A stretch of DNA of 64,000 bases, taken from positions 1 to 64,000 of the IMG/VR virus record IMGVR_UViG_3300027621_000003, one strand, 5' to 3'. This document shows positions 42,073 through 49,527 of the stretch, one piece after another. The notes under the pieces are model-generated. The model searched no databases. It was not told the DNA's origin and saw only the letters and a list, made by a program, of their open reading frames with translations. A program made the position numbers and the translations under genes. The stretch's first letter is position 1; every line of letters starts with the position of its first letter. Origin of the DNA: a virus.

Positions 42073-43911
42073 TTATCCGGTGTTGTTTGGAACAGAACTA
42101 TATGGACCCTTGACACTACCATCACTAATCATTTTATTAATTTGTTTAATAAATGTTTCGTTTTTAAATAAATCATACACTTGGGTGTCAGTTAAATTAC
42201 TAGTATTTCCATTTGGTGTTGTAACTTTAATTTCAATCGCACCTTTATAATTAATATCTTCAACTTTTATTGTTTGATTATTTGATGATTGTGATTGGTT
42301 TGCGTCCGCTTTATTTGTCATTGTTCCTGATGCGGTGGCTTTTGCTGCCAATTTTTTAAGTCCCGTAACCGCCAAATCTGCTGCTTCAGCAATTTTATTT
42401 CCTGAACTAACATATGGTTGAATAGCGGCTTTAAAATCAATACTTGTGATTGATTGTTTTATGTTAGAAAAACTTTGTTGTACATCCGCACCAGCATTTT
42501 TAAAAACTTCAGCAATTTTCGCAGGACCTCCTTCCCCTTTTAATAAATCAAGAATACTTTTACCCGTCTCATCATAAAATTTATCAATAGATGCTATAGC
42601 CCCTCTTTGGTTTCCAATTGTTTTATCGGTTGCCGCCATTCCAACTTGTGTAACACCACGACCAAATTCTCTCAGTTCTCTTGGAGCTTTTGAACCCGCT
42701 ATTGGTGCTGCGACACTATCAACTAACCTATTTATAGCTGCAAGTTGTAACTTTTCAGTATCTAATTGAGCCTTTGCAATTTCTTCAACAGTAACGGTTT
42801 CTTGTGATTTTTTTATTTCATCAAGGTCCGCAGGATTAATTTCAGAAACCAATTTATCCATTCCCCCAACTTTAACTGTAAATCCACCCTTGTCTTTGTT
42901 ATATTCGGCTACATTAGCAATAAATTGTTTGGATTCTTCATCCATTGAGTTTGTTTTGAATTCGCCTCTAATTTTGTTCAACTTTTGTTGACCTACAGAC
43001 ATCTTAACTAATTCTTCATACGCAATACCAGTTTGCTTTGCAATCTCCCTTAAATCACGTTTTGCATTTGGAAAAACTTCAAATTGTTTTGTTTTTTCGT
43101 TAAAAAATGTAAATTTTTCGGTCATCTTAACAACTTGATTCTGTAGTTCTCCCGCATCTTCAGATGCTAAATACATTAATCTAAATGGGTCCGCTAAATC
43201 ACCAGCAGCAACACCTAACCTTTGGAAGGTTGATACCATATCAACAGCACCTTCAGGGTCAAATACACTCGCCGCAAAATCAAAAATTTGATTCATATTG
43301 ATACGTAATCCTGCCGCTTGTGCCGACATTTTAGCCAAACCAGCAACACCGTTTTCAAAACCAAATTTGTTTATATTACTTAAATTGTCTTGGACAAGTT
43401 TAAATACTGCACTTGTGTTAACACCAACTTTTCTTGCGGTATCAACAGTTAGTTGAATGTTTTCTTTGATTTTTCCTGTTTGAACTCCAGCGTCTTTGAA
43501 ATCAGCAACCATCTTACCAATTTCATTTGAGTCTATTCCAACTGCCTGTCCCGCAGCATATAAATCACCTACAGTTTCTCCAAGAGTTATTACATTTGTA
43601 TTTAAACTATCGGCAATTCCTCTTTGAATATTCTGTACATCTGTTAACCTTCCACCTAAACCTATAACCAATGGTGTCGCAACCGCTAATTCAACAGCTA
43701 AACCTTTAATGGCCATTTGGGTTTGACCAAAAGTTTTAGAAATGTCTGCCGACATTATATCAAATTCTCTTACTAAAAATTTGGTTCTATCTGCTAATTT
43801 AGAATAACCCTCATCAATTTTTTTTGTAAAATCACTGATAACATCTTGAGCCGCCTGTGAAGACGCTGTACTATTATTTGGGGGATTACCTGGTGGTGGA
43901 GATGCTTGCAT
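42073..43911 (-). CDS. Tail tape measure protein
   Basis: A 612-residue, largely helical protein. A Pro/Asn/Ser-rich N-terminus (to about residue 22) is followed by long heptad-like helices, a hydrophobic Gly-rich segment (GLAVELAVATPLVIGLGGRL, about 70-88) and many Ala/Gly helices (VGDLYAAGQAVGIDSNEIGK). The C-terminal 60 residues are polar. Composition and position, between tail tube/gp26 genes and the 1619-residue tail protein, fit a tape measure that sets tail length and may cross the host membrane during ejection. T4 gp29 is 590 residues, a close size match. Confidence 0.7.
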   Translation of the reverse strand: MQASPPPGNPPNNSTASSQAAQDVISDFTKKIDEGYSKLADRTKFLVREFDIMSADISKTFGQTQMAIKGLAVELAVATPLVIGLGGRLTDVQNIQRGIADSLNTNVITLGETVGDLYAAGQAVGIDSNEIGKMVADFKDAGVQTGKIKENIQLTVDTARKVGVNTSAVFKLVQDNLSNINKFGFENGVAGLAKMSAQAAGLRINMNQIFDFAASVFDPEGAVDMVSTFQRLGVAAGDLADPFRLMYLASEDAGELQNQVVKMTEKFTFFNEKTKQFEVFPNAKRDLREIAKQTGIAYEELVKMSVGQQKLNKIRGEFKTNSMDEESKQFIANVAEYNKDKGGFTVKVGGMDKLVSEINPADLDEIKKSQETVTVEEIAKAQLDTEKLQLAAINRLVDSVAAPIAGSKAPRELREFGRGVTQVGMAATDKTIGNQRGAIASIDKFYDETGKSILDLLKGEGGPAKIAEVFKNAGADVQQSFSNIKQSITSIDFKAAIQPYVSSGNKIAEAADLAVTGLKKLAAKATASGTMTNKADANQSQSSNNQTIKVEDINYKGAIEIKVTTPNGNTSNLTDTQVYDLFKNETFIKQINKMISDGSVKGPYSSVPNNTG

Positions 43912-43933: not shown

Positions 43934-44116
43934 TTATTTTTGATAAGATTCTATTAATTTGTCCACCATATACCTACGAGCATATGTTGGCATTTTTTGA
44001 AAATCTGTCCAAGACATATGTAAATCTCGGCTCAGAATAAAAAATTCGTCTAATTGAAATTTCCTATATTCAGAAGAAAACCCGAAAAAACTCCACCCCA
44101 AAGGCGATTTCAACAT
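43934..44116 (-). CDS. gp51-like small baseplate/tail assembly protein
   Basis: A 60-residue frame overlapping the end of the gp26-like gene by 47 nt in the +1 phase. Residues about 16-60 (SEYRKFQLDEFFILSRDLHM, then SWTDFQKMPTYARRYMVDKL) have the pattern of small tail/hub assembly catalysts ('F.L.Y.g..sy.dl..MP...R...v..L'). It could start at its own ATG (44116, with AGGA upstream) or be reached by +1 frameshifting at TTT TTT CGG near 44085. Both frames read ..FF at that point. In T4, genes 26 and 51 are adjacent. The protein itself looks real; its mode of expression is unsettled. Confidence 0.65.
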   Translation of the reverse strand: MLKSPLGWSFFGFSSEYRKFQLDEFFILSRDLHMSWTDFQKMPTYARRYMVDKLIESYQK

Positions 44117-44819
44117 CTACCTTGTTTCCTGACGGGGCTATAACTGTTTTAGTTAAATCTAATCTTGGTTCATTTTCATCAATAAATTTTCTAATGAATT
44201 TTGAATCCATAATTGGTAATCCTTCAACAAACTTAATAATAGTTGACTGTGTTGTGTCACCATTAACAGATACAATTTGTTTTTGAAGTTTCATTGTAAC
44301 TCTTGGAGCGACTCTTCCAGCGGGATATGAATCAGCCACCTTACTAATTTCTTGAATTTCTTTATATAGAAGTGGTTTTAATTTAACGGTTGCTTGTGAC
44401 TTTGGTAAAACAACATCAAAAGTACCATCTTCGTTGGGGTCTGTAGATGGTTTTCTAAAATCTAATTCGTCCAACAATATATCGGCAGAAAATCTTTTTC
44501 CAGTCTCAGGGTCGTTAATACTGATTTTATATTCAGGTCCAAAAGAAGTATTTCTTAAAAATATTAAAATTGCTTCAATATCTCCATTTAACATTTCATC
44601 AGGTTTTAAATCTGGTTCGTACAATTTTGAACGAACTAATGTCATAATCATATCATCGGTATTTGAACCCATAATGATATTCTCATCTGCGGCGGTCAAA
44701 TAACCAACCTTAACAGATTTTTTCTTTGATTTGTAGAATTTACCTTCAGATGGTAATTTTACCACATCGTGTGGTAAATTAAATTCTTGTTGTGCGTATT
44801 GTAATAAATTTTCGTCCAT
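44070..44819 (-). CDS. gp26-like baseplate hub assembly protein
   Basis: A 249-residue protein. The N-terminal region FNLPHDVVKLPSEGKFYKSK followed by VKVGYLTAADENIIMGS matches the 'lPS.G.fY.....v.....ta.dE.il.s' pattern of gp26-type hub assembly proteins of T4-like phages. IEAILIFLRNTSFGPEYKIS and a C-terminal GNKVDVEIAFGVEFF follow. It is needed in low amount for hub or tail assembly. Its ATG abuts the U-tract of a terminator that follows the tail tube gene. Its end overlaps the gp51-like frame by 47 nt. Confidence 0.7.
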   Translation of the reverse strand: MDENLLQYAQQEFNLPHDVVKLPSEGKFYKSKKKSVKVGYLTAADENIIMGSNTDDMIMTLVRSKLYEPDLKPDEMLNGDIEAILIFLRNTSFGPEYKISINDPETGKRFSADILLDELDFRKPSTDPNEDGTFDVVLPKSQATVKLKPLLYKEIQEISKVADSYPAGRVAPRVTMKLQKQIVSVNGDTTQSTIIKFVEGLPIMDSKFIRKFIDENEPRLDLTKTVIAPSGNKVDVEIAFGVEFFRVFF

Positions 44820-44896: not shown

Positions 44897-45385
44897 TTAG
44901 TAAACTAAGATACAACGGTCCATTTGTAATGTAACGTCTAATCCTGCTAATTTGTCATCACTATATGATACACCATCCCAAGCGGATTTTGTAATCATAC
45001 ATTGTTCAAGAATCCATTTTTCCACAACAACACCTGTTGGGTCCAACATCTCAAGGTCAACATTCTTTTTATAACCTGCAGCATATCCCATACGACCTGT
45101 AACTGATTCAGCGTGTAAACGAACCCACTCCATAAGAGCTTGTGTTGCTGATGGACCAATTGGGTCACGGAATTTAACTGAGATTGGATTCCATTTAAAT
45201 CTACCAGCTACATATGTAGAAGTGTTCAAAAATTGTATCTCAACAGGGTTAATATCAATACTTGGTCTTCCTGATGATTCTACGAACCATTCATTAATAC
45301 CTAAAGTTGTGTCAAACCTAAGTATAAATCGGTTCGCTCTTTTTGGTTCGTAAGGAACCGGCATTTTCATTAATAAATCAGCCAT
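44897..45385 (-). CDS. Tail tube protein, gp19-like
   Basis: A 162-residue protein with the contractile tail-tube pattern: PYEPKRANRFILRFDTTLGI, VESSGRPSIDINPVEIQFLN, the strand WNPISVKFRDPIGPSATQAL, and an ending LAGLDVTLQMDRCILVY. T4 gp19 is 163 residues, an exact size match. Hexamers of this protein stack to make the inner tube. It is preceded by a TATTTATA-like leader and followed by a strong terminator, consistent with a high-level separate transcript. Confidence 0.88.
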   Translation of the reverse strand: MADLLMKMPVPYEPKRANRFILRFDTTLGINEWFVESSGRPSIDINPVEIQFLNTSTYVAGRFKWNPISVKFRDPIGPSATQALMEWVRLHAESVTGRMGYAAGYKKNVDLEMLDPTGVVVEKWILEQCMITKSAWDGVSYSDDKLAGLDVTLQMDRCILVY

Positions 45386-45488: not shown

Positions 45489-46325
45489 TTAGTATCTGGT
45501 TTTAGTTCCTCCAGCAGTATAATAAGTCTTTAATACTGGTTCATCTTTAAAACTCTTCTTCATTACTTCTACATTCTTTAAGTCATCATCTGAAAAACCA
45601 ATACTAGGCACAAATTTATTTTTCACATCATCTTTAACATATAATTTTTTACCCATTTCTTTAGCCTGTCCTTTTACATATGAAATAAATTCTTTCATTG
45701 CTTGGACTTTTAATTCCTCGGGGTTGGCGGCTCCTGCGTCTGTACCAAAACTAACAGGATAATATTTGTTCATATCCATATAGTCTTTTATTAATTCCAT
45801 ATCCGATTTGTCCTCCATATTTGAAAGGTCACGGAATTTTCTAAGATTCTTAATTAATAAGTCTTTATTAATACCCATATGGTCAGAAATAATAAGATTA
45901 TAAATTGCGTCTTTAATTGTCTCGGGGTTGTGTCCACGTGCGGTGATTATTGAAAAAATTGACCCGTTGTTGATTGCCTCCACAAAATCAGACCAAGCGG
46001 GACCTGGTTTACCTTTCATGGTATCAATTTTAAATTGTTTATCACCACCCGTTCTAAAATTACGAAAAGGTTCGTCAGAATATCCAACTATTTTACTACC
46101 TTTGTAATCAAATGGTTCTACACCAATTTCACTTCTATATTCTGCAAAATCTTCTGTAGACATACCAACTTCATTGTCATTTTCATCTTTAACAATAATT
46201 TTTGTTGGCATCATCATGATATTATCATCCCAATCAAAGGCATAATATTTCATGTCAGGCGTACCAACATCATCAAAACCTTCAAGTAATGATGATGTTG
46301 GATTTAGTATTTTTTTTCTAATCAT
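45489..46325 (-). CDS. HAD-superfamily-like phosphatase
   Basis: A 278-residue protein. Motif I is YYAFDWDDN (Asp31 and Asp33, the HAD nucleophile and acid). Motif II is probably SIITARGH near residue 125-132. Motif IV is GFSDDDLKNVEVM near 245-257. The C-terminus is a short TAGGTKTRY tail. HAD enzymes use the first Asp to remove phosphate from small molecules, nucleotides or polynucleotides. It sits between tail sheath and tail tube, 7 nt after the sheath stop, an odd place for an enzyme. Substrate unknown; a virion-linked or assembly role is possible. Confidence 0.65.
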   Translation of the reverse strand: MIRKKILNPTSSLLEGFDDVGTPDMKYYAFDWDDNIMMMPTKIIVKDENDNEVGMSTEDFAEYRSEIGVEPFDYKGSKIVGYSDEPFRNFRTGGDKQFKIDTMKGKPGPAWSDFVEAINNGSIFSIITARGHNPETIKDAIYNLIISDHMGINKDLLIKNLRKFRDLSNMEDKSDMELIKDYMDMNKYYPVSFGTDAGAANPEELKVQAMKEFISYVKGQAKEMGKKLYVKDDVKNKFVPSIGFSDDDLKNVEVMKKSFKDEPVLKTYYTAGGTKTRY

Positions 46326-46332
46326 TTAAAGA

Positions 46333-49300
46333 TTAAATATTTTCAAATGACGCTCCTGTTGGAGTTATTAAGAATTCAATGTCAATGAATTCCAACGCTT
46401 TTGTTGGTTTCAAGTAAATTTTACCCGACATAGTATTTCTGTCTAAATCTTCAGGTGAATTACTTACAGTAACACGGAAATCATATAAACCTCTGTCTCT
46501 TCTAATAGCGTCCAAGATAGGGTTAACTGAATCCAAGAAGTCTTGTCTTACCTTAGCGTCGTTTTGTTCAAACAATAATCTTACCGCCACCGCTGAAATT
46601 AACTTACGAGCTTGTAATAACAATCTTCTTACGTTAATTCTGTTAAGTGCTGTGTCAGCAATTTGTAATGTTTTATTACCCCAAATTACAGTTCCAACAT
46701 CTGAGAAAGTTGCGATAGGGTTAATTCTACCTTGGTACAAAGTATCTCTATCTTCTTGTGTAAGCTTCTTACGTGCTTTAACAGCATTTACCAAACCTCT
46801 TGTGTAACCCGCAGTTGCGAACCATGGGAACGAAATGTTATCAGTCAACGCTAAGTTTCTACAAACTTCATTTGTTGGTGGTATGTAAATTTGTGTGTTA
46901 TTTACAGTATCTCTTACCAAAATCCATGGGTAATAAGTTGCTGTGTAGTTAGAATCAATTCCTGTATTATCTAAGTTATTAACCGCTTCTGTTGGGTAGA
47001 TGAAATCAGCTATATTTGTTACTGGTACAAACATTGCTGTATCAGGTGTTGTACAAATGTAGATTGAATCCGCTCTATCAAATGTTACCATAGAAATTGA
47101 ATCCTCAACCAAGTTTGAGTTATTAACATAATCAATACCAGGTGTTGCAAATACATTTATGTTAACCGCTTCAGGGTTTGCGAAAGTATTAATACCTAAC
47201 AAGTATGCGTAGTAGTCAGTATTTGAATAATCTGTAAAGTTACTAATAGCAATTGGTTTGAAAGCTCCCCAACCAGTTGCGTTAGGGTATCTTGTAGTTG
47301 GACAAGCTCCCGCTTGGTATCCACTACCACCTAATATAAATCTATCTGTATTTGTTCTACTTTCACTATAAATATCCCAACCATCAAATCCACCTTGTAA
47401 TAATAATGTGAATTTTCTTGCTTGGATTTGGAAGTATGGATTTGCGGGTGTTTCAGGGTCAGATTGGAATGAAGCAACCCCACAATCAAACGCTGGTGTT
47501 CCTGAAGTAGTACCATAAGCAATATTTACAACTGTTGCTCCCGAATCCATGTGGAATCCTTTAGTTACAGTATCCCAAGGTAAAGCATCACCTTCAACAC
47601 ATAAATCAAGAGGTTTTTGTTTACCTTTATATTCAAAGAATAATGGGTCATAACCAATTTGAGATGAAATACCCAAATAAGTACTTCTTACTTTATCACC
47701 GCCAGATACCGCTTTGTTATCAAAACCTGTATATGAGAATGGTGGGTTTGTAACAATACCAAATGGTGGGTTGTAAATTACTTCACCTGGGAAGTTGTAT
47801 GCCACTTTATAAACTGGGAATGGAGAAGTTGCTGAACCGTATGTTCTAATAACATATCCTTCAAAACCACAAGGTACACTTTCAGGATTTGCTTCAGTGT
47901 TCATCTCCAACATTATGTACTTAGAATTCAATGAGTATTCTCCATCACTAGTACCAATTTTAACACCAACATAGTTATTGTTTGTTGGGTCCATAGTACA
48001 ATTTGTGTATTTTTCTATAACAACAGGATTAGCATCTGTATCAAAGAAATCACGAACCGCAATGTCAAAACTTAAGTTGTTAAATGAAATATTTTGGATT
48101 GAAATTTTAATTTGAGTGTTTGCGCTATTACCATCAGCAATTGAATAAAACTTAAACAATCTTTCAACTGTAGAACCATTAAGTTCAGATACAACCCACG
48201 GTGATTCAGGTGATTGGTATTGTTCCAAGTAGTTAGCAATTGTACCTGTAGTTACAGGGTTTCTTAAACCTGGTAAACTAATTAACGATGAGTTAATACC
48301 TCTGATGTAACCTTTGTTATAACCATAAGTCAACATTGTTTGGAATTGTTCTTCAACAAACAATGGTGTTTCAACTCTATTTTTACCGAAGTTAGAAATA
48401 CCAAATACTTTTGTAATATAATTTGTGTCGTTACTATTCATAGACGCAACAAACGAGAACGAATCTGGTGTTTCAGCGTTGTCAGTATAACCTGAAATCG
48501 CAAATTGTGCGAATGGGTTTTGAGAAATTCCTGAATAAGAACCTGAATTATCTATAATAACATCAGTTGTTCCTGTAATTTGATATTGTGGACCATGATA
48601 GTCTGATGTAAACAACGAAACACCTCTTGAACGTAAAGTTGCAACAACAACATCATTCCAACCTTCATATGCAGTACCTGAGTATGTATAAGTTTTACCT
48701 GTGATAGTTCCTGAATAGTTACCAGAACCTAAATCAGTCATTGCGGATACTACGTTAAAGAAAGAATATCCTGTATAAGTATCTCCTGTTGTAATATCAA
48801 AGTTTGCGTAATACCAAGTATCATCACTTGGTGATGTAAAGTCAGCATCATAAACAGAAAGTCCAGACACATTATAAACGTTTGTCTGAGCGGTATATCC
48901 TGGTAATAACGAATTATAATCAGATGTTGACACGGTTCCAAAAATGTATGCCGATGCTCCTGAAGTAGTTCCTGAGTTATTAATGATTGTTTGAATTTGA
49001 TTATATAAATCCGTAGTAATTGTTGATACACCACCATTATATTGTGTGTATGTATTTCCTGTTTGGATTATAGATGGGAATGATGAAGTATATGTAATAG
49101 CAGTTCCACCTGTTGTTCCCGTAAAGGTAACAGAGTATGTTGTACCTGTTGATACACTAAGACCCACAGTACTTCCGTCAACATTGGCAATTGTTGTGAT
49201 TGACCAAGATGAACCCGCATCATAACCAGATAAACCCAACACCCTTGTTACAAACAATTGGTTAGATTGTTGAAGGTATGATTTTGCTATATAAGCCAAC

Positions 49301-49527
49301 TCATATTTTGGGATTTGAGTGTTTACAAATTTTTCGGGGATGGTTCCACCGAAATATGATTCAAAATCATTATAATTTGTAATGAAGATTGGTTCGAAAG
49401 CCGGACCTGTTAATGTCTCCCCAACAAGACCAAGAGTGGTTACCCCCACACTTTGAGCTACGAAGCTAAGGTCTCTCTCTGATGTGTATACACCAGGAGA
49501 TACGAATACTTTATTTGATACTGCCAT
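46333..49527 (-). CDS. Tail sheath protein, gp18-like
   Basis: A 1064-residue contractile sheath protein. The N-terminus SNKVFVSPGVYTSERDLSFV is the classic sheath opening. GLVGETLTGPAFEPIFITNY and YFGGTIPEKFVNT follow. The C-terminal domain has LTQEDRDTLYQGRINPIATF, RRLLLQARKLISAV, a conserved RRDRGLYDFRV segment and the end IDIEFLITPTGASFENI. Typical sheath proteins are about 400-700 residues (T4 gp18 is 659), so about 400 extra residues, largely Gly/Thr/Tyr-rich beta between residues about 110 and 650, form surface domains. It is followed by the HAD gene and then the tube gene. Confidence 0.9.
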   Translation of the reverse strand: MAVSNKVFVSPGVYTSERDLSFVAQSVGVTTLGLVGETLTGPAFEPIFITNYNDFESYFGGTIPEKFVNTQIPKYELAYIAKSYLQQSNQLFVTRVLGLSGYDAGSSWSITTIANVDGSTVGLSVSTGTTYSVTFTGTTGGTAITYTSSFPSIIQTGNTYTQYNGGVSTITTDLYNQIQTIINNSGTTSGASAYIFGTVSTSDYNSLLPGYTAQTNVYNVSGLSVYDADFTSPSDDTWYYANFDITTGDTYTGYSFFNVVSAMTDLGSGNYSGTITGKTYTYSGTAYEGWNDVVVATLRSRGVSLFTSDYHGPQYQITGTTDVIIDNSGSYSGISQNPFAQFAISGYTDNAETPDSFSFVASMNSNDTNYITKVFGISNFGKNRVETPLFVEEQFQTMLTYGYNKGYIRGINSSLISLPGLRNPVTTGTIANYLEQYQSPESPWVVSELNGSTVERLFKFYSIADGNSANTQIKISIQNISFNNLSFDIAVRDFFDTDANPVVIEKYTNCTMDPTNNNYVGVKIGTSDGEYSLNSKYIMLEMNTEANPESVPCGFEGYVIRTYGSATSPFPVYKVAYNFPGEVIYNPPFGIVTNPPFSYTGFDNKAVSGGDKVRSTYLGISSQIGYDPLFFEYKGKQKPLDLCVEGDALPWDTVTKGFHMDSGATVVNIAYGTTSGTPAFDCGVASFQSDPETPANPYFQIQARKFTLLLQGGFDGWDIYSESRTNTDRFILGGSGYQAGACPTTRYPNATGWGAFKPIAISNFTDYSNTDYYAYLLGINTFANPEAVNINVFATPGIDYVNNSNLVEDSISMVTFDRADSIYICTTPDTAMFVPVTNIADFIYPTEAVNNLDNTGIDSNYTATYYPWILVRDTVNNTQIYIPPTNEVCRNLALTDNISFPWFATAGYTRGLVNAVKARKKLTQEDRDTLYQGRINPIATFSDVGTVIWGNKTLQIADTALNRINVRRLLLQARKLISAVAVRLLFEQNDAKVRQDFLDSVNPILDAIRRDRGLYDFRVTVSNSPEDLDRNTMSGKIYLKPTKALEFIDIEFLITPTGASFENI

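Follow-up and report, generated by a model that had tools for sequence, protein, structure and literature searches.

The opening 64 kb of a 294,914-base viral record, apparently from a giant bacteriophage (the stretch analyzed here, referred to as the window), carry two overlapping reading frames on the minus strand that resemble the T4 proteins gp26 and gp51, and the question they raise is how the second of these frames comes to be translated. The upstream frame (44070-44819, minus; frame 0) encodes 249 amino acids assigned to PF12322 (T4_baseplate) and to the baseplate hub family phrog_150, the T4 gp26/gp51 family. It scores 43.2 bits against the PF12322 profile, where the curated cut-off is 24.5, with residues 30-245 covering positions 10-218 of the 219 in the profile. 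The frame 0 protein ends in ..GVEFFRVFF and TGA, written in the DNA as GAG TTT TTT CGG GTT TTC TTC TGA. The +1 frame is open from 44116 to 43934 (60 amino acids, reading ..SFFGFSSEYRKF..), and from the second TTT onward it reads GFSSEYRKFQLDEFF..SYQK. The initial annotation suggested a possible +1 frameshift at TTT TTT CGG, and this site does exist, but at 44082-44090 (minus), 3 bases from the 44085-44093 that had been given. Its candidate P-site codon is the TTT at 44085-44087 and its A-site codon the presumably slow CGG at 44082-44084, and the frame 0 stop (TGA, 44070-44072, minus) lies 15 nt past the start of the P-site codon. The extension that would become readable only after a shift spans 43934-44083 (minus; 49 codons plus the stop), which would bring the long form to 294 amino acids.

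The overlap proved to recur well beyond what chance would allow, and comparison of the sequences makes a programmed +1 ribosomal frameshift very probable. Relatives were drawn from viral contigs and phage genomes and extend from 100% identity down to about 25% (25-30%); a scan of genome contigs returned no relative. The initial annotation would have abandoned the idea had relatives lacked the overlap, and instead the +1 arrangement is kept in 109 non-redundant loci. In these +1 lineages the frame 0 protein stops a few codons past a Phe-Phe pair, with its homologous C-terminal continuation encoded in the +1 frame. The slip would take place at UUU_Y in 108 of the loci, which thus follow the P-site rule of UUU_Ynn sites (UUU, then C or U), and at UUU_A in the remaining one. 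The scan behind this count demanded a TTT, and loci that read TTT CTT TGG could just as well slip at CTT_T. Among isolates the slip text is TTT CAC in Bacillus SP-15, TTT AGT in Listeria LIS04, TTC TTT CGT in Streptococcus GXN1, TTT TGG in Microcystis Mel-JY01 and Rhodothermus RM378, TTT CTT TGG in Flavobacterium immuto, and TTT CAG and TTT CGC in the Streptomyces phages LuckySocke and BRock. A TTT TTT C run, the second feature that the initial annotation expected relatives to share, is present as six or seven T in the window and many relatives, and many other members keep only a TTT plus one base. Among the annotated relative records examined a frameshift annotation is absent, and several carry a small ORF with an internal start instead.

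In the immuto-like clade (L183-L262) the slip text is TTT CTT TGG or TTT CTA TGG. The members with CTA are compatible with UUU_C alone and those with CTT with either UUU_C or CUU_U. Folding signals in this clade are weaker, and they appear both upstream and downstream of the slip site.

The codon usage of the virus fits a slip at this position. CGG, which had been proposed to be slow in this AT-rich genome, is indeed the rarest sense codon of the 295-kb genome (17 of 76,712 codons), with CGC the second rarest, and none of the 28 tRNA genes in the record reads it, while two are tRNA-Phe(GAA). These tRNA genes are located at about 130,600-156,000 of the record (L287, L288), and one has an unassigned two-letter anticodon. 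Among 209 long ORFs, TTT CGG occurs in frame exactly once, at the slip site. The second Phe codon is TTT in all 48 members of the window clade, though TTC accounts for 27% of their Phe codons. Elsewhere in the genome Phe-CGN pairs appear to avoid this combination, using TTT in 5 of 18 cases compared with 79% for all Phe (P = 5e-6). Part of this avoidance is a broader avoidance of TTT before any C-starting codon (58% versus 79% overall), an effect that AAT and TAT do not show. The proposal that a tRNA-Phe slips from UUU to UUC ahead of a slow CGG, yielding a fused assembly protein and a shorter one, is supported by the comparison across the 109 loci, with UUU_Y in 108.

A second conserved element lies just upstream of the slip site. 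We surveyed third codon positions in 48 window-clade representatives of less than 95% identity, numbering from the first base of the P-site codon as 0. Of 246 non-Met columns, 7 never vary at the third base: those of the slip TTT and of the doubly coding TTC TTC, GGG at -12 to -10, GCC/ACC at -51 to -49, GGA at -42 to -40, and one Lys/Arg column. GGG and GCC/ACC face each other in a stem RCCCCR:UGGGGY, where their third bases form a pair, and this stem encloses a second one. In the window the predicted stem-loop occupies 44095-44138 (minus), with an outer stem GCCCCG:UGGGGU, an invariant UCAGGA bulge and an inner stem. The 5' arm of the outer stem contains an invariant CCCC (44134-44137, minus; the synonymous C is kept in 48/48) and the 3' arm an invariant GGGG (44096-44099, minus; third-position G in 48/48). 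In an alignment of 29 sequences, 93.7% of cells pair, and there are 19 two-sided changes, though the cells that carry them are not independent events. Shuffling gives 5.0 ± 2.0, with none of 500 shuffles reaching 19, and slid controls give no more than 11. This covariation is located in the inner stem; the outer stem alone shows none because its core never varies. The folding energy is 2.6 standard deviations below that of codon-randomised sequence (z = -2.6), and 15 other gene windows range from -0.8 to +1.3. A covariance model of the element also detects it in L030, L031, L033 and L034, outside the set from which it was built, and finds no other match in the genome below E = 0.03 and no stem-loop in the other +1 clades. 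A comparison with Rfam gave no family, only two chance-level matches. Downstream of the slip site the window clade has no consensus structure. A pseudoknot pairing UCAGGAGAA with UUCUUCUGA (+9 to +17) fits most relatives, is incomplete in the window, and was dropped.

How the stem-loop acts may be seen in two ways. The stem could be incidental, with the GGGG pairing to the anti-Shine-Dalgarno (anti-SD) sequence of 16S rRNA as in the RF2 gene prfB, a view that bears on the stimulator only. The 48/48 invariance of the GGGG would suit it, as would the frequent GGG at the corresponding place in the immuto-like clade. We nevertheless regard it as unlikely, since the GGGG ends 8 nt ahead of the P-site codon when the SD-like element of RF2 stands 3 nt from it, this genome makes scant use of SD motifs, and pairing of the GGGG would leave both the invariant CCCC and the covarying inner stem unexplained. 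In the stem-loop reading, which we favor, the structure would re-form behind the ribosome and may pull on the mRNA, promoting a forward step.

The other way to reach the second frame is a start codon of its own. The ATG at 44114-44116 (minus), preceded by AAGG and AGGA in the window and its closest relatives, had been put forward as the simpler alternative and would, like a later TTG, yield a separate 60-amino-acid protein. This explanation did not survive the comparison. In 27 of the 109 loci the +1 frame contains no ATG, GTG or TTG upstream of the slip site, the first start codon coming at least 10 codons into the extension, and a separate start therefore does not explain the arrangement. 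In L023 and L024, whose protein is 95% identical to that of the window, GTG-GAG has become GTA-GAG, which places a TAG in the +1 frame one codon ahead of Phe-Phe and so separates the ATG from the conserved part by a stop. As protein, the +1 frame is not conserved ahead of the slip site, and both the ATG and an AAGG fall within the predicted stem-loop. The nearby AGGA is uninformative because SD-like motifs occur in the 20 nt upstream of just 11 of 206 long ORFs of the genome. Initiation in this virus thus seems to be SD-independent (11/206), as in some Bacteroidota hosts. That a separately started extension is possible at all is shown by L273 (match 1501-2196) and L279 (match 1501-2199), in which the +1 overlap has been lost and the extension stands alone as an ORF, opening with an ATG of its own and longer by about 20 N-terminal residues. 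Their sequences show a natural de-fused pair, apparently a model of what a separate gene looks like in the PF12322 family, and fusion is therefore not needed in every member. For the window, an independent start is very improbable.

Least probable is transcriptional slippage, in which RNA polymerase would omit one U on the T6 run and the fusion would be made from edited mRNA: the window and many relatives do have six or seven T, but six bases make a short run for a polymerase to slip on, many members have no run at all (TTC TTT CGN, TTT CTT TGG, CTG TTT CAG/CGC) and keep only TTT plus one base, and the constraint falls on UUU_Y and the next codon.

We therefore read the two frames as one putative tail assembly chaperone made in two lengths through a +1 slip at UUU_UUU_CGG, and give this reading a probability of roughly 0.9. 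What the comparison of relatives demonstrates is the slip site with its conserved change of frame, the RNA structure and, in part of the loci, the absence of any start codon; the occurrence and rate of the shift and the role of the stem-loop are inferred. Most ribosomes would translate 44819-44070 to give the 249-amino-acid short form. Some would pause on CGG while the P-site tRNA-Phe steps one base forward, from UUU to UUC, and decoding would continue in the +1 frame to give the 294-amino-acid long form (..VEFFGFSSEYR..YQK), for which the predicted junction peptide is VDVEIAFGVEFFGFSSEYR.

The slip site has parallels elsewhere. UUU_Ynn sites are especially prone to +1 shifts in bacteria, and UUU_CGU is the frameshift site of influenza PA-X (PMC5009743). 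The likeness to bacterial YopN-TyeA and influenza A PA-X (UCC_UUU_CGU) lies in the P-site UUU followed by a pyrimidine, and many relatives of the window use UUU_CGU itself; these sites differ in belonging to other genes, and the same review sees no evident stimulator in PA-X (PMC5009743). The CUU_UGA site of RF2 shares the +1 step of the P-site tRNA, and the TTT CTT TGG of the immuto-like phages contains CUU_U, but the A-site codon in the window is CGG rather than a stop, and its GGGG ends 8 nt upstream with no SD-like element at 3 nt. A chaperone of the archaeal myovirus HSTV-2 very likely also uses a +1 shift (PMC5009743), and it resembles the present pair in the direction of the shift in a myovirus chaperone pair, a likeness drawn from the review and not from sequence.

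Gene order and fold bear on the function of the pair. Immediately upstream is a tail tube gene (44897-45385, minus; phrog_4542, E = 3.5e-27), preceded by the sheath gene (46333-49527, minus), and downstream lies a 612-amino-acid ORF (42073-43911, minus) without a family match in our searches, which we presume from its position to be the tape measure protein. In LIS04, immuto and Cr30 an annotated tape measure gene lies one to a few genes downstream of the pair. The order is thus sheath, tube, frame pair and likely tape measure. A separate 278-amino-acid ORF between tube and sheath (45489-46325, minus) has FDWDDN near its start, by eye a HAD-type phosphatase-like motif. A structure model of the frame 0 protein alone (pLDDT 88), aligned to 991 PDB chains, has as its best 2 matches the HK97 tail assembly chaperone (Z = 5.7, 95 residues aligned, 3.9 Å) and YqbN (Z = 5.5); these scores are modest, under 8, and the next unrelated fold follows at Z = 3.5. 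Taken together, the gene order and the modelled fold, whose matches score modestly, suggest a tail assembly chaperone system of the lambda G/GT kind, and we infer a chaperone function for the pair.

The gpG/gpGT frameshift of lambda has counterparts in many long-tailed phages (PMC5009743). As in lambda, the window would use a single gene for both a short and a long chaperone, changing frame shortly before the first reading frame ends, and this gene stands between those for the tube and, judged by position, the tape measure protein; the slip-prone site close to that end and a second frame without a conserved start recur across the 109 loci, 27 of them with no upstream start. It differs from lambda, where the shift is -1, in its +1 shift at UUU_CGN, its conserved upstream stem-loop and its family, PF12322. 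By analogy with gpG/gpGT, the tape measure protein would be coated by numerous copies of the short form and a small number of the long one, whose extension would bring in the subunit of the tail tube.

Other T4 relatives appear to make the same pair by shifting in the opposite direction. In cyanophage S-PM2, gp26 ends TCT TTT TTC GCA TAA and gp51 (phrog_634) follows the heptamer T_TTT_TTC in the -1 frame, so that a matching pair of parts would be joined by a shift at the same Phe-Phe just ahead of the frame 0 stop; S-PM2 differs from the window in its -1 heptamer and in a folding signal that is downstream. The heptamer T_TTT_TTC stands at this Phe-Phe in 63 of 63 unique cyanophage-like loci. 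Over 46 such loci the mean z is -2.6 and -2.9 for sequence that starts 6-12 nt past the site, a strong folding signal, and none is seen upstream of the site; single sequences downstream out-fold codon-randomised ones, though no single consensus hairpin emerges. The -1 arrangement, with T_TTT_TTC or T_TTT_TTT, also occurs in 121Q, PA5oct, Atu_ph07, RAS14 and LR756511, and it is found again in Cr30, phiN3 and two Straboviridae, AS-szw and R10Z. In Vibrio phage 1.255.O (L383, 1498-2390) the extension is likewise in the -1 frame, but the text TCA CTT TTT CGC TAA is no standard heptamer. A profile built from +1 extensions finds the -1 extensions of LR756511 (E = 3e-9), L263 (8e-7), 121Q (0.001) and S-PM2 (0.008), the best decoy being at 0.015. 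In a tree of frame 0 proteins the two directions cluster, with at least 2 changes of direction, the deep branches being weak.

This leaves T4 itself, whose gp26 and gp51 are described as hub parts and assembly catalysts. Both proteins (208 and 249 amino acids) match PF12322 over the full length of the profile, and gp51 has about 48 residues more than gp26, reaching the end of phrog_150, which S-PM2 gp51 also matches. Since gp26 corresponds to the short form and gp51 to the short form plus an in-frame extension of about 48 residues, T4 encodes the short and the long member in two genes, while AS-szw and R10Z, which belong to its family, carry the -1 site. The T4 proteins share PF12322 and phrog_150 with the window pair, and differ from it in coming from separate genes on opposite strands, without a frameshift. 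The link from the extension to T4 gp51 runs through phrog_150 and phrog_634, the +1-extension profile giving no direct score against T4 gp51. G-T frameshifting has been reviewed as conserved "except T4" (PMC5009743). The sequences suggest that T4 probably swapped the frameshift for two genes, and such a short and long pair may explain the exception. We found no report of frameshifting in gp26/gp51 in open-access papers, and earlier recognition in subscription journals is possible.

We consider it likely that T4 is no exception to the G/GT system at all, gp26 and gp51 being its G and GT, split after a duplication, and that a single Phe-Phe pair has been used for +1 shifting by some lineages of this family and for -1 shifting by others, the RNA stimulator lying upstream in the former (window clade) and downstream in the latter (cyanophage clade). 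If so, programmed frameshifting would extend to the T4-related tail chaperones, where it was believed absent, and T4 gp26 and gp51 would gain a testable role. The family would provide a natural example of a frameshift that reversed its direction during evolution while staying at one place, its RNA stimulator being found on the other side, and hundreds of phage records would show, where the long form belongs, a small gene with a wrongly assigned start.
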